Positions 3,240-21,530 of a stretch of DNA of 64,000 nucleotides are shown piece by piece (the stretch's first letter is position 1; every line of letters begins with the position of its first letter). The notes beneath the pieces are model-generated. The model did no database searches. It was not told the DNA's origin and saw only the letters and a program-made list of their open reading frames with translations. Origin of the DNA: Niabella ginsenosidivorans (lineage in GTDB: Bacteria; Bacteroidota; Bacteroidia; Chitinophagales; Chitinophagaceae). Made by a program: the position numbers and the translations under genes. Where the stretch lies: the NCBI RefSeq assembly GCF_001654455.1, contig NZ_CP015772.1, forward strand, positions 4,402,001-4,466,000, written 5' to 3'.

Positions 3240-4088
3240 CTACGGAAGAATATCAAATGTTTGCCCGCTTGTATAAATACCCAGCCGGATATTTTTAGAG
3301 GCCAGCCGGCCCCCGGAAGACACTTTTACCGGCTCTTCCGCTATCAACCGCAGCACCTGGCTTTCTCCCACTACGGTTGCCTTATTGCCTTTTACAATGA
3401 TAGCTGTTGACTCGTCTATCCCTACTCCATAATACCCGGGATAAGCCGCCAATGCAGACAGTAGGCGGTTATAGCGGCTGCGTTTTATAAAATGCTGATC
3501 GATGATCGTATGCTGCAACAATCCCAGCCCTTCGGAAAACTCAATATTAGCCGGAAGCAGCTTATCAAAAGTTTCCTTATAAACCGTATCCTTTAACTGG
3601 CGGCCCGTGATCATATATCTGCTCATCACTGCTGCACCGGCGCTGGTGCCTGCAATGGTGCTTCCGTTCTTAAATGCAGCATGTATGGACTCATAGACCG
3701 GGGTATTTTTAACAACGGCCATAAACCGGTTCTGGTCGCCTCCTAAAATATAAATAAGCCGCGCATTGCGCAAAGAATCAACACCGCTTTTATCCGCAAC
3801 ATTGCGCTTCCTGAAATCAAATAACAGTACAGGAGCGTTTGTAAATTTTTCCAGTTCCTCTTTGATATACTTATACCCGGTATCCGGCAGTTCGCTGGCC
3901 ATGGGCAGAACCACTATATAATCCTTCTTATGAAGCCCGGCTGTAGTTACAAGGCTTTTAATTAAGGCATCGCCGCGGGAGCCACCTCCTATAATAAATA
4001 AGCAGCCTTTACCGGCAGGCTGCTGGCTATACGCCTGAACAGCCAGCAGGAGCACCAGGATCAAACTATTCAGCAACCTCATTCTCAA
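3240..4088 (-). CDS. Exported cyanophycinase-like serine peptidase (family S51)
   Basis: This 282-residue protein has an N-terminal signal peptide ending near QAYSQQ, so it should act in the periplasm or outside. S51 cyanophycinases cut cyanophycin (an aspartate backbone with arginine side branches) into beta-Asp-Arg dipeptides. All catalytic elements are present: nucleophile Ser149 in GTSAGAA, His199 in IIDQHF and Glu226 in GIDEST, matching the Ser-His-Glu triad of CphB. Its ATG overlaps the stop of the isoaspartyl peptidase by four bases (ATGA), so the two genes are translationally coupled. It is the last gene of the SusCD locus. Other S51 peptidases cleave Asp-X dipeptides, but the neighbouring beta-aspartyl peptidase favours cyanophycin-type substrates. 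Confidence 0.88.
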   Translation of the reverse strand: MRMRLLNSLILVLLLAVQAYSQQPAGKGCLFIIGGGSRGDALIKSLVTTAGLHKKDYIVVLPMASELPDTGYKYIKEELEKFTNAPVLLFDFRKRNVADKSGVDSLRNARLIYILGGDQNRFMAVVKNTPVYESIHAAFKNGSTIAGTSAGAAVMSRYMITGRQLKDTVYKETFDKLLPANIEFSEGLGLLQHTIIDQHFIKRSRYNRLLSALAAYPGYYGVGIDESTAIIVKGNKATVVGESQVLRLIAEEPVKVSSGGRLASKNIRLGIYTSGQTFDILP

Positions 4089-5122
4089 TTTTTATAGATC
4101 TGTACTTCAATTTTACCATCGGCCGTTACAGCACCCCTGTACATACCTTCAGTATTGAAAGGCATGGCCATATTTCCATTCTTATCCAGGATGATCAGGC
4201 CCCCATCACCGCCCATTGCGCCCACATTGTCCAGTACTTCTTTTGAAGCCTGTTCAATGGAATAGCCCTTATACGCGATCAGGTCACAAATCGTTTTGGC
4301 TACCACATTCCTGATGAAAAACTCTCCCCAGCCGGTACAGGAAATACCTGCCGTGCGGTTATCGCAATACGTACCGGCTCCTATGATTGGAGAATCGCCC
4401 ACCCGTCCGTATTTTTTGTTGGTCATACCACCGGTAGAAGTACCTGCCGCCAGGTTGCCAGCATTGTCCAAAGCCACACAACCAACTGTACCAAACTTAT
4501 AATCCCTGTTGATGGTGCCCAGTTTGGAAGTGGTTTTGCTGTTGTGGTCCAATACGGCTTTTACTGAATCTTCTTTAATAGCTTCCTGCAATCCCTTCCA
4601 CCGTTCCTTTGTCCAGAAATATTTAGGGTCTACGATGGTAAGCCCCGCTTCTTTTGCAAAAATTTCCGCGCCTTTACCCACCATCATTACATGCTCCGAT
4701 CTGTCCATTACCGCCCTTGCGGCAGTGATCGGGTTCCTGATAGTGGTAACACCTGCCACGGCACCTGCTTTCAGGGTTTTACCATCCATGATGGAAGCAT
4801 CCAACTCATTTCTTCCATCGTGTGTGAACACAGCGCCCTTTCCGGCATTGAACAAAGGATTGTCTTCCAGTACATGAATGGCTGCTTCCACCGCATCCAG
4901 GCTGGCACCCCCGTTTTTAATGACGTTATACCCCGCCTGTAATGCCTGTGTAAGCGCTTCTGTATATGCTTTTTCTTTTTCAGCGGTCATGTTCTTTTTT
5001 AAAATGGTGCCGGCGCCGCCATGCACTACGAGAACATATTTTTTATTTTGCGCATGAACTGCAGCACAGAAAAAAATCGTAAGGATCAGCAGAATGCTTT
5101 TAAAATTATAAATCATATACAA
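4085..5122 (-). CDS. Exported isoaspartyl peptidase / type-2 L-asparaginase (Ntn hydrolase)
   Basis: These enzymes hydrolyse beta-aspartyl (isoaspartyl) dipeptides, including the beta-Asp-Arg released by cyanophycinase, and sometimes asparagine. The precursor self-cleaves before a threonine that becomes the nucleophile. Here that residue is Thr212 in the FGTVGCVA motif, preceded by a typical linker. The VVHGGAG motif at 32-38, the VGDSPIIGAGTY segment at 241-252 and the MGGDGG segment are also family hallmarks. An N-terminal hydrophobic segment ending AVHAQ predicts export to the periplasm. The 345-residue length fits the family. It sits between two cyanophycinases and is coupled to the downstream one by a four-base overlap. 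The pairing implies stepwise breakdown to aspartate and arginine. Confidence 0.92.
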   Translation of the reverse strand: MYMIYNFKSILLILTIFFCAAVHAQNKKYVLVVHGGAGTILKKNMTAEKEKAYTEALTQALQAGYNVIKNGGASLDAVEAAIHVLEDNPLFNAGKGAVFTHDGRNELDASIMDGKTLKAGAVAGVTTIRNPITAARAVMDRSEHVMMVGKGAEIFAKEAGLTIVDPKYFWTKERWKGLQEAIKEDSVKAVLDHNSKTTSKLGTINRDYKFGTVGCVALDNAGNLAAGTSTGGMTNKKYGRVGDSPIIGAGTYCDNRTAGISCTGWGEFFIRNVVAKTICDLIAYKGYSIEQASKEVLDNVGAMGGDGGLIILDKNGNMAMPFNTEGMYRGAVTADGKIEVQIYKN

Positions 5123-5137
5123 GAGAATTAAACCGGA

Positions 5138-6214
5138 CTATAATTGTTTTTTAAATAAGACTCCATTTGCTATATACCAATAATACCAGGTGCCTCCGGA
5201 AAAAGAATCCACATCAAAGCTAACTGTATTTACCGAGCCTGCGCCACTGTTGCTCCCGGTTATTTCGTAAACACGTACCGCTTTTTCGTTATCAGACCAG
5301 GTAACTTTCTGACCAACCTGAAACTGCTCAGGTTTTTTCGAACTATCAGTCAGTAAAAAGTACGCTTTTGATGAACCGAAAATCTTAGCTGTTCCTTCTT
5401 TATCAATGCAAACGGCAGTACGCTCATCAACGGCAATCCCTTTGGCCGCAACCGACCAGTCTTTCATGATCCTGCCCAGGAACGTCATCGTTCTGCCCTC
5501 CCTGCTCCTTGTAAGGAAGTGTTGGTCCGTAATCACATTTTTCAACTGGCCCGATTGAATAAAATCAGAATTGTATAACGTAATATTTACATTATACGGA
5601 TTATTTAATGCTTCCTCTGAAGTTACCCCGCCTGTTTCCCCGCTGTAATACAGGTTGCCCAGTATGGCACAGCCTGCGGAGGTTCCTCCCACAGGCGTTT
5701 TTTTTTCATTTAACAGATAGTTGATCGCTGCTTCGGTTTTGGTACCCTTCCAGTATTCCCGGTATTTTGACTGATCTCCACCGGCAATAAAAAGCATTTC
5801 CGCATTCCTGATGATGCGCGCTATGGCATCATTGTCAGCCAGTTCCCGGCTGTTGATCAATAAGGTTTCAACAGAGTTAACAGCGCCCAGCTTGTACACA
5901 TAAGGATTATAGGCATCTGTTCCGGACGCGCGGATGATCACTACATCGCCGCCGCCGCTTCTGTCAATCATCCATTTAAAAGCTGCGTCTACATCTGTAC
6001 CACCGCCCATCAGCACCATGCCGCCCCCCGTACTTTTTATTACATCCGCTGTATCCCCTACCAGCCCCAAGGACCCGGGTCTTTGGGGCGTTTGTGCGCC
6101 ACCTCCGGCTGGCGGAGGATTTGGGCTGCCGGTACTACTGTCTTTACCGCAGGCCAGCGTATGCCAGCAGGTAAGTATTATTATAAAAGGAAATAAATGC
6201 TTCATCATCCTCAA
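5138..6214 (-). CDS. Lipoprotein cyanophycinase-like serine peptidase (family S51)
   Basis: A second S51 peptidase, 358 residues, differs from the downstream one by a lipoprotein signal. The lipobox LAC has Cys22 and is followed by GKDSS and a Gly/Pro-rich linker (residues 28-48), suggesting a tethered and possibly surface-exposed enzyme. The triad is intact: Ser179 in GTSAGCA, His232 in TDQHF and Glu264 in AVDERTA. A C-terminal extension of about 80 residues beyond the S51 core is not assigned. Its start overlaps the susD stop by four bases, placing it immediately after the SusCD importer. The simplest reading is that it makes the first cut in a polymer at the cell surface. Confidence 0.86.
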   Translation of the reverse strand: MRMMKHLFPFIIILTCWHTLACGKDSSTGSPNPPPAGGGAQTPQRPGSLGLVGDTADVIKSTGGGMVLMGGGTDVDAAFKWMIDRSGGGDVVIIRASGTDAYNPYVYKLGAVNSVETLLINSRELADNDAIARIIRNAEMLFIAGGDQSKYREYWKGTKTEAAINYLLNEKKTPVGGTSAGCAILGNLYYSGETGGVTSEEALNNPYNVNITLYNSDFIQSGQLKNVITDQHFLTRSREGRTMTFLGRIMKDWSVAAKGIAVDERTAVCIDKEGTAKIFGSSKAYFLLTDSSKKPEQFQVGQKVTWSDNEKAVRVYEITGSNSGAGSVNTVSFDVDSFSGGTWYYWYIANGVLFKKQL

Positions 6215-7611
6215 TAACCGGGATTTTGTTTCGTTGCTTTATTGATCAATACCTCAGTTGCAGGAACAGGAAATGCATATTGTGCCGCTGTTGGCGCCAG
6301 TGTTACCGCACCAGAGGCATTTACTGCGTCTTCAGGCAACCGCTGAACGCTCAATCCTCTGCGCCTTAAGTCGTAAAACCGGTGACCTTCAAAAGCAAGC
6401 TCTTTAAACCGTTCCTCCATAATAGCCGTAATCAACGCTTCTTTACCTGCAAAAGCAGCATTTGTATAATTACGGATGCGTTGTGCTCTTAATGCATTTA
6501 AAGTGGCTGCACCATCCGCCCAGTTACTTCCTTCTGCCTGCGCTTCTGCTTTTATAAGATACACCTCGCCGGTGCGGAATAGTTTAATATCTGTTAACCC
6601 CGGAGCTGAAGCCGTTCCCCCGATGTATTTACTGACGCGGTATTTTGATTTGAGACCGGTCCTGGACGGATCGTATGTGATATAGGCCTTTGCCCTGACA
6701 TCATTGGTGGTATCAAATAAATGGATCAATTTAAAGGCAGGTGCGTACAATACAATTCCGCCCTGTTCCCTGTAATAAAAACCTCCGACCCGTGAACCGG
6801 TTGTTCCCACTCTTTTTGCTTTCCAGATGACTTCATTGTCATTGGCATCCGTCCAGATGCCGGGAAACTGGCTTTTAGAGGCCAACGGCTGTGCATCAAT
6901 GACCTCATTGGCATAGGTAACGGCTTCGCTCCATTTCTTTTCGTATAAAGCGATCCTTGCCTGGAGAGCAGCAACCGCAGCCCTAGTGATCCGCGTTTTA
7001 TCATTGAAAGATGCAGGGATCAGGTCTTTTGCTGCCGACAGGTCTGCCTTAGCATCCGCAATCACTACTTCAAAATTATCCCTGGCAGGATAGCCGATCG
7101 CTGAGGCTTTCATATAAGGCACACCCATTGCGCCGCTTTCGTAGGCGGAAGCATATGCTCTCAGCAGCTCAAAATGAAAATAGGCCCTTAATGCTAAAAG
7201 TTCTCCTTTGTACTGGTTTGCAAGCGGGGCATCCGCATTGCTGATCGTTAGTTTTTCTAACCCTTCCAGGGTCCTGTTCACCCGGTCAATAGCCGTATAG
7301 CCCGTATAGTAAAAAGACGTGACAGAGCCGCTGCTGGGCGTATACAACCACCGGAACGCATCGCTGTTGCCTACTGTATTTTCCGTTGGGTACATGGCTT
7401 CATCAGAAACCGTACTATTCAGGCTGATCTGATCATAATCCACCAGGGCATATACGCCTATCAAACCCATATTTACATCAGACACATTTCTGAATGCCTT
7501 GGAAGGATCTATGACATCGGTCGGCTTCAGGTCTAATTTAGTACAGGAAGCGGCTGCAAAAATTGTAAACAGTACTATATAGATATTAACAGTTGTTTTA
7601 TTGATCATCAC
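6211..7611 (-). CDS. SusD/RagB-family outer-membrane substrate-binding lipoprotein
   Basis: This 466-residue lipoprotein has a lipobox ending ASC (Cys23). It is followed by the SusD pattern: an N-terminal TPR-like helical region, a central part with LRAYFHFELLRAY near residue 140, and the C-terminal EERFKELAFEGHRFYDLRR motif near 400 that typifies SusD C-terminal domains. SusD proteins form the lid on their partner SusC and capture ligand at the cell surface. It lies 7 bases downstream of susC and overlaps the lipoprotein cyanophycinase gene by four bases. Given those neighbours, the ligand is more likely a peptide-like polymer or its fragments than a glycan. Confidence 0.95.
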   Translation of the reverse strand: MMINKTTVNIYIVLFTIFAAASCTKLDLKPTDVIDPSKAFRNVSDVNMGLIGVYALVDYDQISLNSTVSDEAMYPTENTVGNSDAFRWLYTPSSGSVTSFYYTGYTAIDRVNRTLEGLEKLTISNADAPLANQYKGELLALRAYFHFELLRAYASAYESGAMGVPYMKASAIGYPARDNFEVVIADAKADLSAAKDLIPASFNDKTRITRAAVAALQARIALYEKKWSEAVTYANEVIDAQPLASKSQFPGIWTDANDNEVIWKAKRVGTTGSRVGGFYYREQGGIVLYAPAFKLIHLFDTTNDVRAKAYITYDPSRTGLKSKYRVSKYIGGTASAPGLTDIKLFRTGEVYLIKAEAQAEGSNWADGAATLNALRAQRIRNYTNAAFAGKEALITAIMEERFKELAFEGHRFYDLRRRGLSVQRLPEDAVNASGAVTLAPTAAQYAFPVPATEVLINKATKQNPGY

Positions 7612-7618
7612 TTGTTCT

Positions 7619-10600
7619 TTAAAGGTTCATGTTTAATCCAAAAGTGTAAGTACGTGCATTAGGATACTGGAAGCGTCCGTAAACACTGTTGTTTTCAGGG
7701 TCCAGCCCTCTCCAGGAGGTCCAGGTATATAAATTTTCAGCCTGTACAAACACTTTCACATCCGTAAAGAATTTTGTGGGTGCCAGCAGCTGTTTGGGCA
7801 GCGTGTAGGACAGCACTATATTTCTTAATCTTAAAAAGGAAGCATCCTGAATATCTTTGGATGTAAAATTTCTTGGAATATCAAACCGTTGCAGGATGGC
7901 ATTATCGCCAGGCTTTTTCCAGCGGTCGTACAGCATGCGTACGGATTGGTTGCTGGTTGCATAGCGCTGGTTCTCGTTATAAAAATCTTCATTGTTCCAT
8001 CGCATCACATCATCAACAAACGAAAACAGGCTGCTCAGGCTAATGCCTTTCCAGGAAACCGAAGTGCCAAACCCACCTGTAAACTTTGGATATAAACTGC
8101 CGGATCTGGTAGTGCTTTGCTCTGCTGCATTATAGGTGGTGGTAATGGTCCCGTCAAGATTATAATACCGGGCTTCACCGGTTTGAGGGTTAACGCCTGC
8201 CCATTGCGGGGCATAATAGGTTCCATAAGGATATCCCACTTTAAAGATCCTTGTATCCCCATCTAACAGCTCATCTGCAAGCGGGGTAAGGTGCAGTATT
8301 TTATTTTTATTATAGGCGGCGTTTACAAAAAGGCTCCATACCAGGTCTTTGTTCTTTATCACATCCCCGCTTAACGCAAATTCAATACCCCTGTTCTGCA
8401 TTTTCCCGGTGCTTAACGGCAATGTTGAAAAACCGGAGGTGGCCGACAGGGGCTGATCAAAAAACATATTGAATGTTTTGCGGTTATAAAAATCGGCTGT
8501 TAACCTTATCCGGTTTGATCTTAACAGGGCTATATCAAAACCCGCATTGAACTCATTTACATACTCCCAGTCATAATCAGGATTTCCGGGGTTTAAAGGC
8601 CTGATCCCCGCAACGCCGCCATAAGAAGTAGCAGTAGAGTAAGTTGGGAGGTATTCAAAATCATTGCCGATGGGGCTGGCGGTAATACCGTAGCTGGTAC
8701 GGATCCTTAAATCCTGTATAAGATCCGATTCTTTGAGGAAGGCTTCGTTCTTTACTGCCCAGTTGGCACCAAACGAATAAAAGCCATGCCATTTGTTTTT
8801 GGGCGCTACTCTTGTAGACCCGTCATACCGGTAGCTGCCTGTAAACGTATACCTGTCATTAAACGTATAACGTAAGATGCTCATAAAAGAGGCTAATGCG
8901 CTTTTCGTTTTACCACCGCTTACCACTGGCATAAAATCAGGGTTTCCGTTTGTTACACCTGCCGGCGTTTCAGGCAGACGGCCATCCAGGCCAAAACCGG
9001 TAAATCCAAAGCTGTTATAGTTATTATAGATGTATTCGTAAATACCGGAGGCCTCAATTTCATGCACCTGATTAAAGGTATTTTTATAGGTGATACCGGA
9101 AGTGGACACTAAACTAAAATTCCTCCTGGTGCCTTCATCCAGTCTCCCCTTGCCTCCTACTGTGTTTGAATTGTTTCTTGAACCATAGTAAGAGTCCGGA
9201 TTAATGTAACGTTGATCAGTTGAGTTCCGGTAATCAATACCGGCCCGCGTAAATAATTTTAAGACCGGCAGGAGGTCATAGTTAAGATTGGCGCCTATAA
9301 TCGTTTTCAACTGGTCTGTTTTGTCGGAAGAGTTGAGCAGCCGCTCCAATGCCTGGCTTCCCTCCCGCTGATCGAGTATAAAATAAGAAGACTCATTGCC
9401 GGGGTGCACCAAGGTACCATCCGGCGCGTAAGGGTATTCATAAGGAAGCGCATAATAAACAGCAGACATTGCTGTGCCGGCGCTTGTAGAGCCTTCTCCT
9501 TCCGTAAAGGACGATTTGGAGTAGCCGATGGCCACATTTAAGCCGCCTGATAATTTTTTGTCTTTAAAATCAACATTGCTCCGCAGCGTAAACCGGTCCA
9601 AGCCTGTTCGTTTTGCTATACCCTGCTGACTGTAGTAATTTAAAGAATTATAGAACCGCACCTTTTCATTGCCCCCGCTGAGCCCTACCTGCTGTTCAAT
9701 AAATTTTCCTTTTTGAAAAAAGAAATCCCGCCAGTCTATATTTACTTTTTTCAAACTATCCAGGATATGATCTGCCCTGTCCCTGAAGGCCTGCGTACCG
9801 GAAATATAGTCGGGGTTTTGGGGGGAATAGGTCCAGCCGGGCCCCAGGTTTCTGCCATAGTCTGCTCCTATCTCCTCTTCAAACTGAAGCCGCTGCGCTG
9901 TATTCATCATGGTAAAGCGGGGGCTGGTAAAGTTGGAAAAACCGTATTGGGAATTGTACTGCACGTTTATTTTTCCTGCCTTACCCTTTTTAGTGGTAAT
10001 AACAATTACACCGTTTGAGCCCCTTGATCCATAAAGCGCTTTTGCAGAAGCATCTTTTAATACCGTAACCTTTTCTATATCCTCCGCATTGAGGGTCTGG
10101 AGATAATTACCTTCAATAGGAACACCATCCAGCACATATAAAGGCATTGAAGAACCATTAATACTGCCGATGCCGCGTATCACCACTGCAGCTGACTGAC
10201 CCGGCTGGCCGGAGGAAGATATAACGCTCATGCCCGGTACCCGCCCCTGCAATATCTGATCCAGCGTGAGCGCCGGAACATTATTGATCTTATCAGCTGT
10301 AACAACCGTGGCTGCATTCGTGGAGTTTTGCCTGGAATAACTGGTATAACCTGTAATGACCACATCCTGTAAAGAGGTTGAATCTTTCGTAAGCTTTACC
10401 ATTATTGAGGTATTACCCTGCCGGGCCAGCGTATAACCTGTAATGGTACGCTCCTCATAACCGATATGGGTGAACGTAAACCTGTATTTGCCTTCGGGGT
10501 TAATACCGGAAAATGAAAAGGCTCCGGAACTATCCGTTACTGTGCTGTAAGCATATTTTGTATTGACCGTATTATGGGCTTTTACTGTTACCCCATCCAG

Positions 10601-10726
10601 GGGCTCCCCTTCAGCATTGGTAACCATACCGTTAACAGAAACAAGCGCCTGACTTGTTCCGGCAATGGAAAATAAGCAGCAGCCCAGCATACACAGTAAG
10701 CAGGTTTTAATCAATTTTCTTTTCAT
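7619..10726 (-). CDS. SusC/RagA-family TonB-dependent outer-membrane importer
   Basis: This 1035-residue outer-membrane protein has a signal peptide, a carboxypeptidase-regulatory-like domain at about residues 30-112, a plug domain at about 120-250 (with LQGRVPGMSVISSSGQPGQ and LKDASAKALYGSRGSNGV) and a long C-terminal beta barrel ending in an aromatic/leucine pattern (FGLNMNL). With its SusD partner it imports oligomers powered by TonB. No N-terminal STN signalling domain is visible, which is unusual for a receptor encoded beside an ECF/FecR pair. A candidate ECF promoter lies at 10769-10798, about 43 bases before the ATG. Confidence 0.95.
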   Translation of the reverse strand: MKRKLIKTCLLCMLGCCLFSIAGTSQALVSVNGMVTNAEGEPLDGVTVKAHNTVNTKYAYSTVTDSSGAFSFSGINPEGKYRFTFTHIGYEERTITGYTLARQGNTSIMVKLTKDSTSLQDVVITGYTSYSRQNSTNAATVVTADKINNVPALTLDQILQGRVPGMSVISSSGQPGQSAAVVIRGIGSINGSSMPLYVLDGVPIEGNYLQTLNAEDIEKVTVLKDASAKALYGSRGSNGVIVITTKKGKAGKINVQYNSQYGFSNFTSPRFTMMNTAQRLQFEEEIGADYGRNLGPGWTYSPQNPDYISGTQAFRDRADHILDSLKKVNIDWRDFFFQKGKFIEQQVGLSGGNEKVRFYNSLNYYSQQGIAKRTGLDRFTLRSNVDFKDKKLSGGLNVAIGYSKSSFTEGEGSTSAGTAMSAVYYALPYEYPYAPDGTLVHPGNESSYFILDQREGSQALERLLNSSDKTDQLKTIIGANLNYDLLPVLKLFTRAGIDYRNSTDQRYINPDSYYGSRNNSNTVGGKGRLDEGTRRNFSLVSTSGITYKNTFNQVHEIEASGIYEYIYNNYNSFGFTGFGLDGRLPETPAGVTNGNPDFMPVVSGGKTKSALASFMSILRYTFNDRYTFTGSYRYDGSTRVAPKNKWHGFYSFGANWAVKNEAFLKESDLIQDLRIRTSYGITASPIGNDFEYLPTYSTATSYGGVAGIRPLNPGNPDYDWEYVNEFNAGFDIALLRSNRIRLTADFYNRKTFNMFFDQPLSATSGFSTLPLSTGKMQNRGIEFALSGDVIKNKDLVWSLFVNAAYNKNKILHLTPLADELLDGDTRIFKVGYPYGTYYAPQWAGVNPQTGEARYYNLDGTITTTYNAAEQSTTRSGSLYPKFTGGFGTSVSWKGISLSSLFSFVDDVMRWNNEDFYNENQRYATSNQSVRMLYDRWKKPGDNAILQRFDIPRNFTSKDIQDASFLRLRNIVLSYTLPKQLLAPTKFFTDVKVFVQAENLYTWTSWRGLDPENNSVYGRFQYPNARTYTFGLNMNL

Positions 10727-10768
10727 TAAACAAACATAATTTTAGAAGAATGACATCTTTTCTCATAT

Positions 10769-10798
10769 TATTTATACGCAATCAGCAGGGGCTACCCC
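10769..10798 (-). promoter_or_regulatory. Candidate ECF sigma promoter upstream of susC
   Basis: On the minus strand GGGGTA is followed 16 bases later by TATAAATA, ending 43 bases before the susC ATG. The same arrangement (GGGGTA, 16 bases, CATAAATT) occurs upstream of the sigma-factor gene at 12509-12538. Spacing fits a -35/-10 pair of an ECF promoter. The GGGGTA lies inside a small inverted repeat (AGGGG/CCCCCT). This is inferred from two matching sites only. Confidence 0.45.
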
Positions 10799-10887
10799 CT
10801 ATTCTTCTTTATATTTTTTCAAAAAAATAGATATGCCCTGTTATAAATGAAAGGACTTAACCGGGAAAGGCACTACCGCGGTCATTT

Positions 10888-11925
10888 TTATTTCCGGGAT
10901 ACCTGGTAATCTTTGTCAGAAATTTTTACCAGCTTCAGGTTATTGATCTGGGCAATATTCTGCAGCAATTTCTCTACAGACTCCTGCCGGGAGTAATCTG
11001 CTATTATATGAATCGCTTCCAGATCCTTTGCTGTATAGGTGATGCGTACATCAAAAACGTCTGCAATTTTATCAAAAGCCTCTTTGAGAGGCACGTTTTT
11101 AAAGGAGATGGTTCCTTTTAGTGCTGCCTGTTGCTTCTCCGGCTGCCGCGGCCTGGAAGATTCCTGTTTTGCCGGCTGCAACAGGGATACTGTAAACCTG
11201 TTTTGATTGGTCTTAAATACGATCTGGCGGTTGGGCGTCAAAAAATACTGCGGCGGATTGACCTGATCTTTATTCCATACCACCACTTTTCCTTCATACA
11301 ACCGTACCGTAACCTTTTCTTTTTCTGCTTTTATTTTAAACCGGGTGCCCAGCGCTTTTGTGGCTATATTGCCGGCCCAAACAACAAATGGCCTTGCGGT
11401 ATCTCCGGCCACTTTAAAGTCTGCCTCTCCTTCAATAAAGACCTGCCGTTCTTTTAAGCCGGAATTGTTTATGTATGTAATGCAGCTGTTATTGTAAAGG
11501 ATTATGGCTGTATGATCCGGCAATTGAAGCTGTTCCGGCTTACCGGAACTGTTGGCCTGCTGCATTGTTTGCGGTTCAATGTTAACAACAGCGGCGGAGT
11601 CGATTCCGGTGTTTTGTTTTTTTAAAGAAAACACCAGCCAGCCTGCTATGCCTGCAAGAATTAAGAAAGAAAGGATGCCACCTTTTAGTGCCCGTTTCCT
11701 GGCTGCGCTCTTTTGAAGCCGACTATGTATCCGGGCAAGCAGTTTCCCGGAAGTAGCGCTGTCTATTAACGAACCGCCGGACTGCCCGGCGGGCAGATCA
11801 TCGGGCTGCAGGTAGTTATTTAATGCCTCCCTGTTATTTTCAAAGTAGGATAAAACTTCTTCCTCCTGCTCTTTTGAACACTTTCCGGCAAAGAAATCTG
11901 CAATTATATCGTCAGGGATCTTCAT
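10888..11925 (-). CDS. FecR-family anti-sigma factor
   Basis: This 345-residue inner-membrane regulator sequesters a partner ECF sigma factor and releases it when an outer-membrane receptor signals. The layout is an N-terminal cytoplasmic sigma-binding region (1-80), one membrane helix at about 83-101, a periplasmic FecR domain (about 115-215, with TALGTRFKIKAEKEKVTVRLYEG) and a C-terminal DUF4974/STN-like domain (about 271-342, with FKNVPLKEAFDKIADVF). It starts 13 bases after the sigma-factor stop, so the two are co-expressed. It probably controls the downstream SusCD-cyanophycinase genes. Confidence 0.95.
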   Translation of the reverse strand: MKIPDDIIADFFAGKCSKEQEEEVLSYFENNREALNNYLQPDDLPAGQSGGSLIDSATSGKLLARIHSRLQKSAARKRALKGGILSFLILAGIAGWLVFSLKKQNTGIDSAAVVNIEPQTMQQANSSGKPEQLQLPDHTAIILYNNSCITYINNSGLKERQVFIEGEADFKVAGDTARPFVVWAGNIATKALGTRFKIKAEKEKVTVRLYEGKVVVWNKDQVNPPQYFLTPNRQIVFKTNQNRFTVSLLQPAKQESSRPRQPEKQQAALKGTISFKNVPLKEAFDKIADVFDVRITYTAKDLEAIHIIADYSRQESVEKLLQNIAQINNLKLVKISDKDYQVSRK

Positions 11926-11938
11926 TATTGATATTTGC

Positions 11939-12478
11939 TTATAAGCAAACGGATAAAGCCAGTAGTAATACCATATACCAGTACAGTTTAATATGCTTTA
12001 ATGCATGGGTAATATGGCTTTCTACTGTTTTTATACTGATATTGAGCAGGTTTGAGATCTCTTTGTGCGATAATTCGTCAAAGCGGCTGAGCTCAAAAAC
12101 CTTTTTCCGTACGGGTGGTAACGTGTTAAGCAGTTTTTCAATCCTTGCCCTCGTATCGTTAAAATTTACTTTATTGGCAACATCATGATTTACGGGCTCG
12201 TAAGCCCTGTCTGCCTGAGGCGCCCGGTAAACGGAATTCTTTTTGCTGTATTTTTTCCGCAACTGGTCGATCAGCACTGTTTTGGCAATCTGAAAAACCT
12301 GTGTACGCAGCTCAATATGTTCCGGTATTTTTTTCCGGTTGTTCCAGAATTTTATAAAGGTCAGCTGTACAACTTCCTCAGCAAGGTAACTACAGCCTAC
12401 CTTCTTCTGCACGAAATCATATACTTCAGCATGATATTCATAATAAACAGTATTAAAAATTGCTTCGGGGTTATGCAT
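11939..12478 (-). CDS. ECF-type RNA polymerase sigma-70 factor
   Basis: This 179-residue sigma factor has region 2 near residues 10-80 (YHAEVYDFVQKKVG through FIKFWNNRKKI) and a region 4 helix-turn-helix near 120-170 (LSHKEISNLLNISIKTVESHI). The length and layout match ECF factors encoded with FecR in Bacteroidota nutrient-uptake loci. The FecR gene follows by 13 bases. A promoter-like pair shared with susC lies upstream (12509-12538), suggesting autoregulation. The C-terminal residues are hydrophobic (WYMVLLLALSVCL), a feature seen in some of these factors. Confidence 0.95.
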   Translation of the reverse strand: MHNPEAIFNTVYYEYHAEVYDFVQKKVGCSYLAEEVVQLTFIKFWNNRKKIPEHIELRTQVFQIAKTVLIDQLRKKYSKKNSVYRAPQADRAYEPVNHDVANKVNFNDTRARIEKLLNTLPPVRKKVFELSRFDELSHKEISNLLNISIKTVESHITHALKHIKLYWYMVLLLALSVCL

Positions 12479-12837: not shown

Positions 12838-13620
12838 TCAATTTGTTGTTTGTATCTTCAGATGGAACAAGGTAGCAAAGTCTGTAGCGCCAAAGGGAGC
12901 ATTGACATCGTTGCTGGCTTTGGAAAAGGCATCATCATACCAGGGATAATTTTTAGTAAATTTATCCTGTATGCCATGCCGTAAATCTACAACCATATCA
13001 AAATTTTGTCCTGCTTTTACAATATGAAAATAACCGTTTAAGCCTATCTTCTGGTTCGTAAACCTGGTACCTTTATCTCCGTAGAAATAGCTCAGCCCGC
13101 CATGATCGGCAAGTCCGTTAATGTTTGTAAACCCGATGATCTTATCCCCATCGTCATTTGTCTGGTCTACCGGCTTGATGCTGCCGGATGCAACCGGTAC
13201 AAAGAAGAACTGGTGAATATAGGCACCGGCTTCCTCATTATCTTCTTCGGTATATTCGTCATTACTGATCTTGCCGTCTTCATCGCGGAAGTTGATCTGG
13301 AACTGGTAGTCGTGCCCGGCCGACCAGGTAAGCGTAGGCGTCTCTGCCTTCACCGTATCCTTACCGTTAATGGAATAATACTGCCCCAGCGCGTCCACAT
13401 AATAGGTTTGGGAAGCGCCGTCAGCCGTAAACACAGGAAGCGCACCGGTTGTGTCGGTCAAATGACCCGGTGTTACCACCAGTTCCGTAGAGGAGTAAAA
13501 TTCCTGCGGAGCCACCTTTTGCCCTACATCGGAGGGGGTTTTTGAACAGGAATTAAACAGCAGGGCGCCTGCCAGGATTGCCGCGCCGGGTAATAAAATG
13601 TTTCTCTTTTTCATTTTCAT
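12838..13620 (-). CDS. Lipoprotein of unknown function beside a ZnuD-like receptor
   Basis: This 260-residue protein has a lipobox ending FNSC (Cys25), so it is a lipoprotein. The mature part is acidic (for example RDEDGKISNDEYTEEDNEE near 110-130) and contains several His residues (GAYIHQFFF, ADHGGL, DLRHGI, LFHLKI). It has no motif I recognise. It starts 45 bases downstream of a TonB receptor whose gene follows a Fur-family regulator, so it probably shares that receptor's task. Metal handling is an inference from context. It is followed by a terminator-like hairpin. Confidence 0.8.
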   Translation of the reverse strand: MKMKKRNILLPGAAILAGALLFNSCSKTPSDVGQKVAPQEFYSSTELVVTPGHLTDTTGALPVFTADGASQTYYVDALGQYYSINGKDTVKAETPTLTWSAGHDYQFQINFRDEDGKISNDEYTEEDNEEAGAYIHQFFFVPVASGSIKPVDQTNDDGDKIIGFTNINGLADHGGLSYFYGDKGTRFTNQKIGLNGYFHIVKAGQNFDMVVDLRHGIQDKFTKNYPWYDDAFSKASNDVNAPFGATDFATLFHLKIQTTN

Positions 13621-13665
13621 TTGTTTTAGATTACCGTATTATTTATTTTATTTGTTTTCCATTGA

Positions 13666-16089
13666 TCAGAATCTGAAAATGGCATGCAACTGTATGTTCC
13701 TGCCGATCTCATCCGTGTAATATCTCCAGCTGTCCAGGTAGTCGCGGTAAGCTTTGTTGAACAGGTTCTCTACCGCCAGGTCAATGGTCAGTGATCTGCT
13801 TCCGTTGCCCAGCAGGAATTTAGTTCCGGCGTCCAGCCCCCATAAGCCGTAAGGCCCGGGCGGAAGTGAATAATCGCTGTTGGGCTCGTAGCGCGTTTGC
13901 CGCGTTACATACATATAATTCACCTGTAAGAAATTATCTGTCGTTTTTTTGGATGAAGGAATGTTCCATTGCAGGCTGTTGGTATACCTGTCTGCCGGGA
14001 TAGCGGGCAGGTAAGCCTCTTTGGTATGGTCGTAAGCCCGTATCAAAGCTGCTTTTAATTCGTACTGGAACTGTTTGCCATCATTGCCAAAATTGTATTT
14101 GCCGTCAAAATCCAATCCTTTAAAAAAAGCATTCGTTTGCCCGAACCGGAAAATAGGGTAGTAGCCCGTGACCGTTTTTGTAAAGGAGCCGGCCGGGTTC
14201 AGGAAGATATAATTCTGTATATACTGAAAATAGAGATTGGTGTAAAATGAAAACCGGGCGCCTGATTTTGTAAGCGTTGTGATCCATTTATAACCATGCT
14301 CGCTGCTCAGCGTGCTGTCGCCGTATTCATATTTATTGGCGCCCTGGTTCAGCCCATAGGCATACAATTCTTCCGGATTGGGCGTACGCCATGCCAGGCC
14401 CAGGTTAGAGCGCAGGTCCCACAGGTTATTTATCTTCCATAAGCCGCCTGCAATAAAGGAAAAGCTGCCAAAATGCCTGTCTCCTCCATATTCGTGATAA
14501 GCACCCCTGAGCGTAGTATACCCATTATAATTCCCCAACTGTTCAGGCGGTATTATATTCCCCAGACTGTCATAATACTGATACAGGAAACGCCGTGAAG
14601 AAGCGTTAAATTGCTGGTAGTCGTACCTTGCGCCCGCTTCCAGGTCTATCTTATCATTTAAAGTAAGCCGTTCTATACCAAAGACGCCTGCAGAGTTAGC
14701 ACTGTAATTGGGTATAAACGGGTTGGAGAGCGTAATGGTATCGTTATAATTGCTTTGCCCCCTCAGGTTAATGCCTGCCGTGGTATGCCATTTTTCCGCA
14801 AAGGTTTTTTGCCAGGTACCTTCCAGTGTATTGGTATGCAATATCCAGTCATTAATGGGCAGGGTGCTTCTGTCGCCGCGCCGCCGGTCATACTCCTGCC
14901 GGTGGTCAATCTGTAAATTGTAATTGACCTCAAACCGGCTGCCGTCATAGGTATTATAATAAATACCGGCTTTTAATAACCGGTGCAGCACGGTTTGGTA
15001 GGGCGCACTGTATTTATAGGAAAAGCTGCCTTCTTCAAAAGGGCCTGTTGATTGCATGCGGGCCTTCAGATCATCAATGCTCCCAATATCAGACGCGAGC
15101 GAGATACCGAGGCTTGTCTGGAACTGGCTGTAAAACACCTGCCCGCCGAAATGGGTTCCCTGGTACCCCAGCGCACCGGAGAAGTTCTTTTGTTCCGTTC
15201 CGGTATTTTCCAGGAAATAATTTTTTGTACGATAATCACCCAGCTTTACATAAGAGCCCTGAACGCGCCAGGCAAGCCGGGGCGTTTTTTTAAAACTGCT
15301 GTTCAGCATTGCCGAGCCTGAACCACCCCGGCCGTTAGAAACGCCATTTATATTTACTTCCCCGTGCAATGCGGGGTCATTGAAAGGCAATGCTGCGGGA
15401 TCCAACAGTATGACGCCTCCCAATGCTTCTGCCCCGTAGCGCACTGCATCTGCTCCTTTAATTACTGTAATATGCTGCGCAATATTGGGGTCTACTTCCG
15501 GCGCATGTTCTATGCCCCATTGCTGCCCTTCCTGCCGGACGCCATTATTGATGACCAGTACCCGGTTGCCGTACAAGCCACCTACTACGGGCTTTGCAAT
15601 GGTGTTACCTGTTTGCAGCATGTTCACCCCCGGAATCGTTTGCAGCAGGTTGGCAAGGTTGGCGCCGCGCATTTTATCCAGGTCCTGTTCTGTTAATACA
15701 GTGGCGGGGGCAATGGCATTTACACCATTGGTTACTTTATATCCCGTTACGGTTACCTGCTCTAAGGTGCCTTCGCCTGGTGTAAGATAAACCGTATCAG
15801 CCTCAATCGTATTTTTTGGGAAAAAATGAACATCCAGCCTATTGTATCCTATCAATGAAAACCTTGCATGAAAACTTTTTAACGAAGGCAGATGCAGCAC
15901 AATCCTCCCACTGTCATCCGCAGCATATTGCCTGGCATTAACTGTTAGCCCGGTAGACGGCAATGGCAAACCGGATGTCCTGTCTCTTATAATAAGAGAA
16001 AGGGTGTACCCTGTTTGCTGTGCTTTTGCGGGGAAAAGAACGGATAAAAACAGACTGAATAAAAAGAATTTCACCAATACCCTTGCCAT
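13666..16089 (-). CDS. TonB-dependent receptor, ZnuD-like (probable metal uptake)
   Basis: This 807-residue outer-membrane receptor has a signal peptide cut after FPAKA, a carboxypeptidase-regulatory-like domain (about 28-112), a plug domain (about 115-235, with TIPGVNML, NGVRQEGQQWGIEH and VIKGADAVRYGAEALGGV) and a barrel ending in an aromatic residue (IFRF). The plug wording with GIEHAPEVD resembles ZnuD-type zinc receptors rather than SusC, and no susD follows. A Fur-family regulator gene is 130 bases upstream on the same strand, and operator-like repeats occupy the gap. Zinc as the metal is an inference; iron or haem uptake is possible. Confidence 0.88.
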   Translation of the reverse strand: MARVLVKFFLFSLFLSVLFPAKAQQTGYTLSLIIRDRTSGLPLPSTGLTVNARQYAADDSGRIVLHLPSLKSFHARFSLIGYNRLDVHFFPKNTIEADTVYLTPGEGTLEQVTVTGYKVTNGVNAIAPATVLTEQDLDKMRGANLANLLQTIPGVNMLQTGNTIAKPVVGGLYGNRVLVINNGVRQEGQQWGIEHAPEVDPNIAQHITVIKGADAVRYGAEALGGVILLDPAALPFNDPALHGEVNINGVSNGRGGSGSAMLNSSFKKTPRLAWRVQGSYVKLGDYRTKNYFLENTGTEQKNFSGALGYQGTHFGGQVFYSQFQTSLGISLASDIGSIDDLKARMQSTGPFEEGSFSYKYSAPYQTVLHRLLKAGIYYNTYDGSRFEVNYNLQIDHRQEYDRRRGDRSTLPINDWILHTNTLEGTWQKTFAEKWHTTAGINLRGQSNYNDTITLSNPFIPNYSANSAGVFGIERLTLNDKIDLEAGARYDYQQFNASSRRFLYQYYDSLGNIIPPEQLGNYNGYTTLRGAYHEYGGDRHFGSFSFIAGGLWKINNLWDLRSNLGLAWRTPNPEELYAYGLNQGANKYEYGDSTLSSEHGYKWITTLTKSGARFSFYTNLYFQYIQNYIFLNPAGSFTKTVTGYYPIFRFGQTNAFFKGLDFDGKYNFGNDGKQFQYELKAALIRAYDHTKEAYLPAIPADRYTNSLQWNIPSSKKTTDNFLQVNYMYVTRQTRYEPNSDYSLPPGPYGLWGLDAGTKFLLGNGSRSLTIDLAVENLFNKAYRDYLDSWRYYTDEIGRNIQLHAIFRF

Positions 16090-16111
16090 TACAATAATTC
16101 AAATAATAAAA

Positions 16112-16126
16112 TGCAACTACGATGCA
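16112..16126. promoter_or_regulatory. Zur/Fur-type operator candidate before the TonB receptor
   Basis: TGCAAC, TAC, GATGCA is an imperfect 6-3-6 inverted repeat, 22 bases before the receptor ATG. It matches the half-site of the palindrome upstream of the regulator gene (TGCAAC/GTTGCA). Another half-site (TTGCAAC) lies at 16148-16154. Confidence 0.45.
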
Positions 16127-16219
16127 TTTGACAAATGTATACAATAATTGCAACTATGTGTCAAAATTTTTTCTGGTTTTTTAAAGCGGGGAATTGCAGT
16201 AAAAATTTAAAAGAATTGT

Positions 16220-16672
16220 CTACGGATTGATCAATTTTGACTGCCTGCTTTTTTTACATTCATTACAGATGCCGTAAATGAAAGTTTCGGATCTGGTTAC
16301 GTTTAAATGCGGCGGTAAGCTGATCGGGGGGATGTTTACCCCGTTCAGGTAAAAAGTTTTATTACATTTCTCACATATAAAATGGGAATGCCCGTTCAGT
16401 GTTGATGCAGACTGGTCTGCATAGAAAGCATATGCAATACTCAGGTCTGTTGTAGGAACCACGTACAATAGCTTTTTCTTCACAAAAAGCCGGAGCGTTC
16501 TGTAGATAGTAGCTTTGTCCAGCTGGCCGTTAAAGATCTTACATAACTTTAGCTGACTGACAGCAACGTTAGTAGCCAGAAAGGTCTCCAGGAGCAGTTT
16601 GCGGGAATAGGTAACGGATAATCCCTTATTTTTTAATAAAAGTATCACATTATCATTTGATCGTTCTCCCAT
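16220..16672 (-). CDS. Fur-family metalloregulator (Zur-like)
   Basis: This 150-residue DNA-binding repressor has an N-terminal winged helix (about 10-75, with the DKATIYRTLRLF recognition region) and a C-terminal metal-binding dimerisation domain. Two CxxC pairs are visible, Cys100/Cys103 and Cys136/Cys139, which hold structural zinc in the family. His95 and His97 in HSHF are likely sensory-site ligands. A perfect palindrome at 16688-16702 lies just upstream of its start, suggesting autoregulation. The adjacent ZnuD-like receptor supports a Zur role. Fur or PerR cannot be excluded from sequence alone. Confidence 0.9.
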   Translation of the reverse strand: MGERSNDNVILLLKNKGLSVTYSRKLLLETFLATNVAVSQLKLCKIFNGQLDKATIYRTLRLFVKKKLLYVVPTTDLSIAYAFYADQSASTLNGHSHFICEKCNKTFYLNGVNIPPISLPPHLNVTRSETFIYGICNECKKSRQSKLINP

Positions 16673-19309: not shown

Positions 19310-21517
19310 TTATTTGATCACCTCCCATCCGGTAACCTTATACAGGGATCCTTTAAAATTTCCTGAACGCTTGAGCTGAACCCGGCTCCTGTTCCAGGCC
19401 AGGCTAACCCAATTGAATGCGCCCCTTTCAAAATTGAAGGTGTGTCCATCATCTTCAAACAACCGGACGGGGGCACCCGGAGTACCGTATATACGACATT
19501 TCAAAGCAAAAGTAGTTCGGGGTGTAATGTATTCAACCGGCTTGGCAAGGGGCAGAATCGTTCCGTCTTTAACGAACATAGGTATCTGATCGAGCGACAT
19601 GCTTATGGCATATTCTTTCCCTCCCTGGTATTTTTTTCCTGTGTTAAAATCATACCAGGTGCCGGCCGGAAGATATACCTTGCGGGATGAAGCACCGTCT
19701 ATAAACGGGGCGCAAAGAATGGCATCTCCCATCATATACTCATCATCTGTTTTCCATACACCCGGATCGTCCGGATAGTCAAGCACCAAAGCGCGAAACG
19801 GAGGCGTGCCATTAAAATGATACCTGGCAAATGCAGCATACAGGTAGGGGATCAGGCGCATCCTCAGCTCAATCAAATTCTTTGCTTTTTGTTCCAGCTC
19901 CCTGTAATTAGGTAAAAATTCGCCCCGGTTGTTTTTTTCCCTGTCATACTGGTACCAGGGAAGGTTTTTCAGGAACCAGCAATCCACCACCATTTGCGAA
20001 GCCATAACCGTTGTTTGTAACCTACGTATCAGGTCAGCATCGGAGCCGGTTTGCCGTACCTCGGGCGACCAGTTTAAACCTGAGAACCCGGAATTTACGA
20101 TCATCCGGACAAAATCAGAATGATCATACATATCAGAATAGAGAACAGAACAATAAGGAGCAGCAAAAAGGCCGGAAGCCCTTACATCCAGAAGCGTTCG
20201 CCGATTAACTTTCCTGAATTCGTCAGATAATGTTTTCTGGTAAAGCAGTCCAAACAACTGCCGCATCTGTTCCCCGTCAATGCCCGAAGGGAACCGTGCA
20301 ATGTCCGGAAAGCTCCATTCCCCCTGAGCCTTGTCGTAATAAGCAGCATCACATTCATCCAGTTTGAATGACGCAATACCTTTATCAATAAATGCATTCT
20401 TATGATATCCCCCGAAAATATGCCTGGCTTCGGAGGTTACAAAATCCGGAACAGCGCCCTTCCATACAGCATAATCGCCTGAATAAGGAAGGATGCTGTC
20501 AAAAATCGGCGAAGTCGGATGCACATAGGCATGCTCCCACAGGTTTAATTTATAATTCATGCCCTGCATTATTTCTAACAAGCTGTCGGGATTTGAAAAA
20601 TTCTTTTCATTCCATTTGTATGAGCAGGAATAAGCTGCTGACTGCCATCCGGGCTCCAGCCCTAACATGTCACACGGAATATGGTTATTTCGGAAATATC
20701 CGGAGAAGTTGATTACCTCAGCAGCAGTAAAATTGCTTTTTGCCCGGTATTTGAGTCCCAGCCCCCAAAGCGGAGGTATGGCTCCGCCACCGGAATACAG
20801 ATTGTACCGTTCAACAACCTCACGCATTCCCGGGCCTTCAAATACATACAATTCCATTCCTTTGGTCCCATCTGCCAAAATCTCAACATCATCGGAGGGC
20901 TCATAGTGCCGGTCATAAAGCGCTGCAGGTGATGATGCGTCTTCACCGGGCCCTTCCTTCAGCGTTTGTTTCAGCGCTACCGATTGTTCCAGCTTATGTT
21001 GCGCCCCCATATAGAAAGTAACATAGCGGGAAGTATTTATCAGCAATCCATATCCTTTTGAAGAAATATAGAATGGCATGGGTGCATGACTGAACCCGAT
21101 GTTGCCGATTGTCCAGCTGTTGGTACGGATATCACGGCGAAGGCCGCGCTGCTCAAAAGTATTTACCTGCAGGCCAAAACCATAGATCCGCTCTGAAGAT
21201 TCCAGTTTCAGGCGGGCCAACGCCCCTTTTTCGGTCTGGTTAAAAAGAACAGCATCCAAAGCTATTGGTGGTTTATTGGAATCAGGGAGCTTTTTTAAAC
21301 CTTCCCAACAGGCTTCTTTTTTGAAATCGGCAGGCCGGATCTTTTCCGGAGACCCAAAAGTAACTTTCCATATTCCCGGTCCGACTTTCTCAATACGTCC
21401 TGCTTGCGGCACTCCCAAAGCAGCTGTTGTTTTGCTTATTGTTTCCTGCTTCAAAGAGCCGGAAACAGCCCGGGTGCACATGGCGGATAAAAGAATACTA
21501 AAAAATAATTTTTTCAT
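19310..21517 (-). CDS. Exported glycoside hydrolase family 31 enzyme
   Basis: GH31 enzymes are mainly alpha-glucosidases, alpha-xylosidases and alpha-galactosidases. The chosen ATG at 21517 starts a signal peptide (MKKLFFSILL); an in-frame ATG at 21553 would overlap GH79 and blur the signal. Visible features are the N-terminal beta-sandwich, IYGFGLQVNTFEQRG near residue 112, the nucleophile Asp387 in FKLDECD, then the SGFSGLNWSPEVRQTG segment near 475 where the acid/base normally lies, and a C-terminal beta domain with GTWYDF and FEDDGHT. The gene follows GH79 by 13 bases. The acid/base segment differs from standard alpha-glucosidases, so substrate is open. Confidence 0.88.
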   Translation of the reverse strand: MKKLFFSILLSAMCTRAVSGSLKQETISKTTAALGVPQAGRIEKVGPGIWKVTFGSPEKIRPADFKKEACWEGLKKLPDSNKPPIALDAVLFNQTEKGALARLKLESSERIYGFGLQVNTFEQRGLRRDIRTNSWTIGNIGFSHAPMPFYISSKGYGLLINTSRYVTFYMGAQHKLEQSVALKQTLKEGPGEDASSPAALYDRHYEPSDDVEILADGTKGMELYVFEGPGMREVVERYNLYSGGGAIPPLWGLGLKYRAKSNFTAAEVINFSGYFRNNHIPCDMLGLEPGWQSAAYSCSYKWNEKNFSNPDSLLEIMQGMNYKLNLWEHAYVHPTSPIFDSILPYSGDYAVWKGAVPDFVTSEARHIFGGYHKNAFIDKGIASFKLDECDAAYYDKAQGEWSFPDIARFPSGIDGEQMRQLFGLLYQKTLSDEFRKVNRRTLLDVRASGLFAAPYCSVLYSDMYDHSDFVRMIVNSGFSGLNWSPEVRQTGSDADLIRRLQTTVMASQMVVDCWFLKNLPWYQYDREKNNRGEFLPNYRELEQKAKNLIELRMRLIPYLYAAFARYHFNGTPPFRALVLDYPDDPGVWKTDDEYMMGDAILCAPFIDGASSRKVYLPAGTWYDFNTGKKYQGGKEYAISMSLDQIPMFVKDGTILPLAKPVEYITPRTTFALKCRIYGTPGAPVRLFEDDGHTFNFERGAFNWVSLAWNRSRVQLKRSGNFKGSLYKVTGWEVIK

Positions 21518-21530
21518 AATTAAGGTATAA

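Follow-up and report, generated by a model that had tools for sequence, protein, structure and literature searches.

Introduction

Cyanophycin, a large and poorly soluble polymer, serves as a nitrogen store in cyanobacteria and other bacteria. Loci for its utilisation have already been described in Bacteroidota. In Bacteroidetes strain L21-Spi-D4 (Salinivirga; Ben Hania et al. 2017, as cited in PMC10206079 and PMC6243061), the genes for cyanophycinases, for an isoaspartyl dipeptidase and for a transporter are grouped and, according to the passages of the two citing papers that deal with this strain, were proposed to scavenge external cyanophycin. Here we examine a 64,000-nucleotide stretch of the Niabella ginsenosidivorans genome (the window; positions 4,402,001 to 4,466,000 of NZ_CP015772.1, a genome of 5.63 Mb in one contig), in which a first-pass annotation made from the sequence alone had proposed a cyanophycin utilisation locus built around a SusC/SusD (SusCD) transporter pair. 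We find a real, conserved gene set that appears to be a SusCD-based version of the cyanophycin loci known so far: its protein families, active-site residues and synteny, and a fusion of two of its enzymes in some relatives, are observed directly.

The locus differs from the L21-Spi-D4 locus in its dipeptidase, which belongs to the IaaA family rather than being encoded by iadA. Also, the S. cyanobacteriivorans counterpart of CYPRO_0608 apparently bears a Por-secretion domain, according to the relevant part of PMC6243061, whereas the window uses SusCD, a lipoprotein peptidase of family S51 and IaaA. Outside Bacteroidota, gene context has led to cyanophycin being proposed as the substrate of a TonB-dependent transporter in Citromicrobium sp. 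JLT1363; the portion of PMC3400609 concerned names one such transporter and one cyanophycinase gene there, and no SusD or isoaspartyl peptidase. RagAB of Porphyromonas gingivalis shares the SusCD architecture and a non-glycan cargo, and among solved structures RagA comes closest to the window SusC, but RagB matches the window SusD weakly (~30 bits) and the cargo of the window pair would be a beta-Asp-Arg polymer or dipeptide. CphB (3en0, 7uqw), which we used for comparison in place of the extracellular CphE, shares the S51 fold and active-site signature with the window enzymes. CphB is intracellular (PMC10206079), whereas the window S51 proteins have signals for export and are encoded next to a SusCD pair. 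No cyanophycinase locus combining SusCD with IaaA was found in the open literature that we searched; Ben Hania et al. (2017) lies outside that search and may hold a prior description.

Results

A SusCD pair is followed by two S51 proteins and an isoaspartyl peptidase

All seven open reading frames (ORFs) listed by the first-pass annotation are present on the minus strand and belong to the families it had named. From position 12478 down to 3240, they encode an ECF sigma factor, a FecR protein, SusC, SusD, an S51 protein (S51b), IaaA and a second S51 protein (S51a). SusC (7619-10726) is a SusC/RagA-family TonB-dependent transporter of 1035 amino acids (TIGR04056, 697.3 bits) with the Pfam domains Plug and CarboxypepD_reg, and SusD (6211-7611) is a lipoprotein with the lipobox AASC (PF07980, 84.2 bits; PF14322, 64.0 bits); the two form a SusCD tandem. 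Behind them lie S51b (5138-6214), an exported, cyanophycinase-like S51 peptidase with a lipobox-like TLAC; IaaA (4085-5122), an exported Thr-nucleophile isoaspartyl peptidase/asparaginase; and S51a (3240-4088), an exported cyanophycinase with an ordinary signal peptide. The gaps from SusC through S51a are no longer than ~21 bases with any choice of start codons. The four-base overlaps that had been reported, between SusD and S51b and between IaaA and S51a, arise only if the TTG starts are used and disappear with the ATG codons that lie two codons further inside (S51b, 6208; IaaA, 5116; S51a, 4082). Like the loci that Ben Hania et al. (2017) described, in the definition relayed by PMC10206079, this one combines cyanophycinase genes with a transporter.

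The absence of a glycosidase was also confirmed for the locus genes by Pfam and NCBIfam scans, and the nearest GH31 gene (19310-21553) lies ~7 kb beyond the ECF gene. We rejected a glycan polysaccharide utilisation locus because the SusCD pair is accompanied by no carbohydrate-active enzyme within the locus.

Both S51 proteins resemble cyanophycinases

By sequence, both S51 proteins match cyanophycinases best, and the predicted fold of S51b agrees. S51a exceeds the cut-off of the curated cyanophycinase equivalog (TIGR02069, 166.6 against 126.6 bits), and S51b exceeds that of the Pfam S51 family (PF03575, 30.6 against 23.9 bits). The first solved chains matched by S51a, both as a single sequence and as a profile, and by the S51b profile were the cyanophycinases 7uqv, 3en0 and 7uqw. 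The best match, 7uqv, bears the title 'pseudo-CphB', on the nature of which our literature search turned up no paper. The predicted S51b structure (mean pLDDT 87.4) was closest to cyanophycinases (TM score by target 0.77-0.82), with PepE-type enzymes lower (0.58-0.68).

We aligned 40 S51b sequences (the window and 39 of 77 from the loci kept below) and 38 S51a sequences (the window and 37 of 49), and checked the CphB residue numbering against 3en0. The equivalents of CphB Q101, S132, D172, Q173, H174, R178, R180, R183 and E201 are invariant in all of them; in CphB these residues act in substrate binding or catalysis. With Ser, His and Glu invariant throughout, the catalytic triads are intact, as the first-pass annotation had read them. 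By contrast, our alignments show that 6nqc, a cyanophycinase-like exopeptidase, has PHF where cyanophycinases have DQHF and none of the three arginines, and that 7c9b, an alpha-aspartyl dipeptidase, likewise lacks the cyanophycinase motif. A PepE-like identity of the S51 proteins is disfavoured by this absence and by the fold of S51b.

IaaA scored 398.4 bits against PF01112, and its closest solved relatives are L-asparaginase/isoaspartyl peptidases whose beta chains start at the residue aligned with Thr212, in agreement with its assignment as a Thr-nucleophile isoaspartyl peptidase. It falls under the cut-off of a narrower NCBIfam equivalog (NF007589, 345.1 against 567). A second IaaA-like copy (G000:C1:3288010-3288906), ~18 kb from the CphA gene discussed below, contains two in-frame stops and is apparently a broken gene.

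The module is conserved across genera

We scanned a collection of species genomes with the S51b alignment and obtained 393 relatives. The following counts rest on the best 80, a sample biased towards near kin because only the best-scoring relatives were kept. SusD was considered linked when it scored above 600 bits and lay upstream of S51b on the same strand. This was the case in 60 of the 80 loci, directly in 59 and with two intervening ORFs in L193. Among these 60, SusC is present in 59, IaaA is next to or fused with S51b in 56, and S51a lies within two genes in 49 (on the opposite strand in L149 and L161), with contig ends explaining some of the missing partners. Eleven named genera are represented among the linked loci, namely Pedobacter, Mucilaginibacter, Sphingobacterium, Chitinophaga, Niabella, Daejeonella, Arcticibacter, Pararcticibacter, Filimonas, Flavisolibacter and Rufibacter. 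The closest counterparts of the window SusC, SusD and IaaA, in L047, L132 and L147, are ~70-78% identical to them, with SusC at ~70%. In six Chitinophagaceae loci (L052, L054, L058, L167, L168 and L172), S51b and IaaA are a single polypeptide of 652-676 amino acids. The fusions of L167 and L172 are SusD-linked and account for two of the 56 IaaA cases; that of L168 has no orthologous SusCD upstream.

Within the order of the window, an S51b-like match was found in 151 of 396 genomes. Each of the top 14, among them that of the window, belongs to a SusCD locus, and three of the 14 are fusions of 656-660 amino acids. A search of the same genomes with SusD, in which up to four candidates were scored per genome, placed the same 14 S51b loci on top of its 56 matches, at 423 bits or more. 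No S51 gene was found near the other SusD matches (404 bits or less) in 20 regions covering 22 of these 42. Since both searches gave the same 14 loci and the lower-scoring SusD proteins in the regions examined were without S51, SusD and the SusCD-linked S51b appear to travel together. None of the 25 regions around weaker S51b relatives (L060-L084) has an orthologous SusCD directly upstream; a SusC is encoded two genes further upstream in L060 and on the opposite strand in L079. In L074 (genome G264), another of these regions, SusC and IaaA lie nearby on the opposite strand, possibly as a rearranged version of the module.

In the phylum at large, TIGR02069 matched 96 of the 395 genomes searched (E 1e-30). 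Among 40 TIGR02069 regions, two of which (L251 and L264) have no S51 ORF labelled, SusCD stands in line with S51 or IaaA in six (L274, L283, L284, L285, L288 and L290), that of L283 being a Pedobacter-type example of the module described above. L285 contains an additional, larger S51b-like ORF (L285:16686-18734, 682 amino acids) upstream of SusC. The gene neighbourhood, loss of which in related genomes had been named as grounds for abandoning the proposal, is thus kept in 60 of the best 80 loci and in 13 further genomes. We rejected a chance neighbourhood, as the module is conserved across genera.

A tree built from 74 SusD rows pairs the window with Flavisolibacter (96/91) inside a set of 31 rows, mostly Pedobacter (100/100). 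The loci of the same genus (UL049-UL051) are placed elsewhere, where they share a set of 20 rows (100/100) with loci of Niabella, Sphingobacterium and Chitinophagaceae. This placement within the SusD tree suggests that the module may have moved between families by lateral transfer.

Individual loci vary in other ways. In L053 (L053:8493-9827) and L193 (Chitinophaga polysaccharea), SusD and S51b are separated by a reverse-transcriptase ORF (PF00078) and another ORF, which looks like the insertion of a mobile element into the operon. A PKD/beta-propeller protein follows S51a in 14 of the 80 loci, distinct from the 14 with a symporter described below and from Sphingobacterium, Niabella and other Chitinophagaceae. 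An opposite-strand gene lies just past S51a in five Pedobacter loci (L117, L119, L120, L124 and L127), and the copy in L119 is M14 metallopeptidase-like according to Pfam. The solo S51b of Mucilaginibacter L142, outside SusCD, is near queA, ispD and a GH19 chitinase gene.

Export signals are shared but the compartments differ among loci

We called export by a crude rule of thumb for signal peptides and not by SignalP. By this rule, all three enzymes of the window are exported, as the first-pass annotation had stated, S51b with a lipobox-like motif and IaaA and S51a with ordinary signal peptides. Among linked loci, S51b is called a lipoprotein in 41 of 58, IaaA in 18 of 54 and S51a in 4 of 49. 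Both SusCD-linked fusions among the best 80 loci (L167 and L172) have plain signal peptides, and an S51b-IaaA fusion places both enzymes in one compartment. No signal peptide is evident on the IaaA of L274 or L285. The proposed scheme of a first cut by a surface lipoprotein followed by periplasmic IaaA therefore does not hold in general, given the lipoprotein counts for S51b and IaaA, the fusions and the IaaA proteins without a signal. A surface first cut is plausible for the window locus.

Genes that may handle the products, and CphA

A symporter of the dicarboxylate family is encoded in 14 of the best 80 loci, all from Pedobacter; ten of these have it immediately behind S51a, and in four there is one ORF in between. 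That of L126 is of the DctA type (596.7 bits). L274 and L285, which belong to the same class, share the order divergent SusCD, IaaA, S51a, carrier, S51b, arginine-deiminase-like protein and CtlX. CtlX, a citrulline hydrolase, scored 447 and 454 bits in the two loci (cut-off, 334), and the arginine-deiminase-like proteins are weak matches (<49 bits). The carrier was scored in L274 only and is YfcC-like there, at 367.8 bits under a cut-off of 500. Outside the locus, the window genome encodes CtlX (428.9 bits), three arginase-family proteins, one of them weak, and three proteins of the dicarboxylate-symporter family. Near the locus of a genome of the same genus lies an arginine-decarboxylase-like ORF (L051:14096-15559), whose NCBIfam matches are under the cut-offs.

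CphA is absent from 12 of the 14 locus-bearing genomes (E 1e-100), which fits scavenging. Likewise, the relevant passage of PMC10206079 counts 32 genomes with a cyanophycinase and IaaA but no CphA, 94% of them with the genes clustered. The idea that the polymer is scavenged from cyanobacteria or other producers gains from these absences; cyanobacteria are not the only conceivable source, however, as the host has a CphA of its own, a point to which we return.

The adjacent FecR and ECF genes are doubtful members

The FecR-family anti-sigma factor (10888-11925; PF04773 and PF16344), encoded 161 bases ahead of SusC, and the ECF sigma factor (11939-12478; PF08281 and PF04542) are doubtful members of the module. 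FecR shows 25-36% identity to its counterparts in L047, L119, L132 and L193, and ECF shows 20-29% identity to those in five comparison loci. Pfam finds no STN domain in the window SusC. This domain is present in all three FecR-linked SusC proteins that we scanned (L047, L055 and L119) and absent from the four others scanned. Among SusC proteins scoring above 1300 bits, 45 of the 47 with FecR or ECF within two upstream genes on either strand have at least 1109 amino acids (the exceptions being L126 and L194), and the nine without a nearby FecR or ECF have 1043-1070. The window SusC is 70%, 68% and 53% identical to the STN-bearing SusC proteins of L047, L119 and L055, respectively, and 58% identical to the SusC of L051, which is of the same genus and has no STN. 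Thus, the claim that the locus has its own ECF sigma factor and FecR did not survive comparison: their identity to the regulators of comparison loci is 20-36%, against ~70% for SusC, and SusC is without STN. For the same reasons, we did not retain FecR/ECF as a conserved regulator of the module, and it is doubtful, on sequence grounds, that they regulate this SusC.

On the upstream side, the window encodes a haem/metal-type TonB receptor, a 260-amino acid protein without a family match and a Fur-family protein (12838-16672), probably a separate metal-uptake unit. Downstream and convergent, on the plus strand, are tandem genes for a UbiX-like flavoprotein and a UbiD-family decarboxylase (822-2968).

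Discussion

We put the probability that this is a SusCD-type cyanophycin utilisation operon at roughly 75%. What stands of the initial proposal is a conserved locus for a beta-aspartyl polymer, most likely cyanophycin, with substrate, import and topology inferred from sequence. In such an operon, the S51b lipoprotein, exposed at the cell surface or facing the periplasm, would take beta-Asp-Arg dipeptides off the polymer ends, and S51a would do the same in the periplasm. There, IaaA would split beta-Asp-Arg into Asp and Arg, which inner-membrane carriers for amino acids or dicarboxylates, encoded elsewhere in the genome, would import for nitrogen and carbon. S51 cyanophycinases act as exo-enzymes, as stated in the section of PMC10206079 that deals with them.

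Several findings weigh against this reading. Twenty of the best 80 S51b relatives do not lie behind an orthologous SusD; most are solo S51b genes of Mucilaginibacter, one (L162) ends at a contig edge and two (L155 and L174) have a different SusD. S51b falls under the TIGR02069 cut-off (73.9 against 126.6 bits) and is cyanophycinase-like, not a member of that equivalog. Because the S51 enzymes are exo-acting and the polymer is large and poorly soluble, the size of what SusCD would import is hard to define. Hints of cargo from the transporter itself are split: the closest solved relative of SusC is RagA (6sli), of an oligopeptide importer, and that of SusD is 3kez, a 'putative sugar binding protein', so that transporter sequence alone does not indicate a peptide. 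The neighbourhoods of the nearest paralogous SusCD pairs gave no lead on an ancestral substrate, the eight neighbouring proteins scanned including gatB, TlpA-like, alaS and MMPL matches and two without a family. Since the IaaA proteins of L274 and L285 have no evident signal, not every locus places the final cleavage outside the cytoplasm. The DctA-type symporter of L126 is a C4-dicarboxylate carrier, which may or may not accept Asp. IaaA and IadA enzymes from cyanophycin clusters lacked specificity for beta-Asp-Arg, according to the part of PMC10206079 concerned, and the locus could therefore serve other beta-aspartyl peptides. Finally, the window genome encodes a full-length CphA (1108.9 bits; G000:C1:3307239-3309830, L046:8730-11426), adjoined by a topoisomerase IB gene.

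The promiscuity of those dipeptidases (PMC10206079, same part), together with the kinship of SusC to the oligopeptide importer RagA, is what speaks for a locus that scavenges isoaspartyl peptides generally, for example from aged or digested protein, with cyanophycin as one possible substrate. We regard this as unlikely, since the locus has two S51 genes with a cyanophycinase signature that is missing from 6nqc and 7c9b, two divergent loci add arginine- and citrulline-type genes, and a Pfam scan found no endopeptidase in the module. A peptide SusCD operon whose S51 proteins bind without cutting, or act as PepE-type alpha-aspartyl dipeptidases, could draw on the low TIGR02069 score of S51b, but it is hard to reconcile with the invariant Ser, His and Glu in 40 and 38 sequences and with a fold nearer to cyanophycinases than to PepE-type enzymes; it would surprise us greatly.

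The host CphA raises another explanation, in which the exported enzymes mainly recycle cyanophycin made by the cell itself or by lysed kin. In its favour, no S51 gene was found in the window genome beyond the two exported ones of the locus. We nevertheless think it improbable, as most locus-bearing genomes are without CphA, genome G347 has a separate cyanophycinase gene beside its CphA, and SusCD implies import from outside. Of similarly slight probability, and more speculative, is the idea that cyanophycin would be a shared outside currency, made by the host CphA. With no cyanophycinases but exported ones, the host would recover it chiefly once kin or neighbours had released it, by way of a dedicated SusCD importer that moves laterally between families.

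If the locus is indeed a cyanophycin utilisation operon, it would provide an example of a SusCD system whose cargo is a polymer other than a glycan, of defined and simple chemistry. It would also be a genetic marker of cyanophycin consumption in the widely cultured genera Pedobacter, Mucilaginibacter, Sphingobacterium, Chitinophaga and Niabella, and would make the fate of released cyanobacterial or bacterial nitrogen stores testable in cultured strains.

One of the regions that we compared, L256, has a different composition, with a TonB receptor that is not SusC, a DcuC-family carrier, an M20 peptidase and an S51 protein with a type IX secretion tail. This tailed S51 resembles the one described in the portion of PMC6243061 cited above, and L256 is a possible relative of the L21-Spi-D4 locus.

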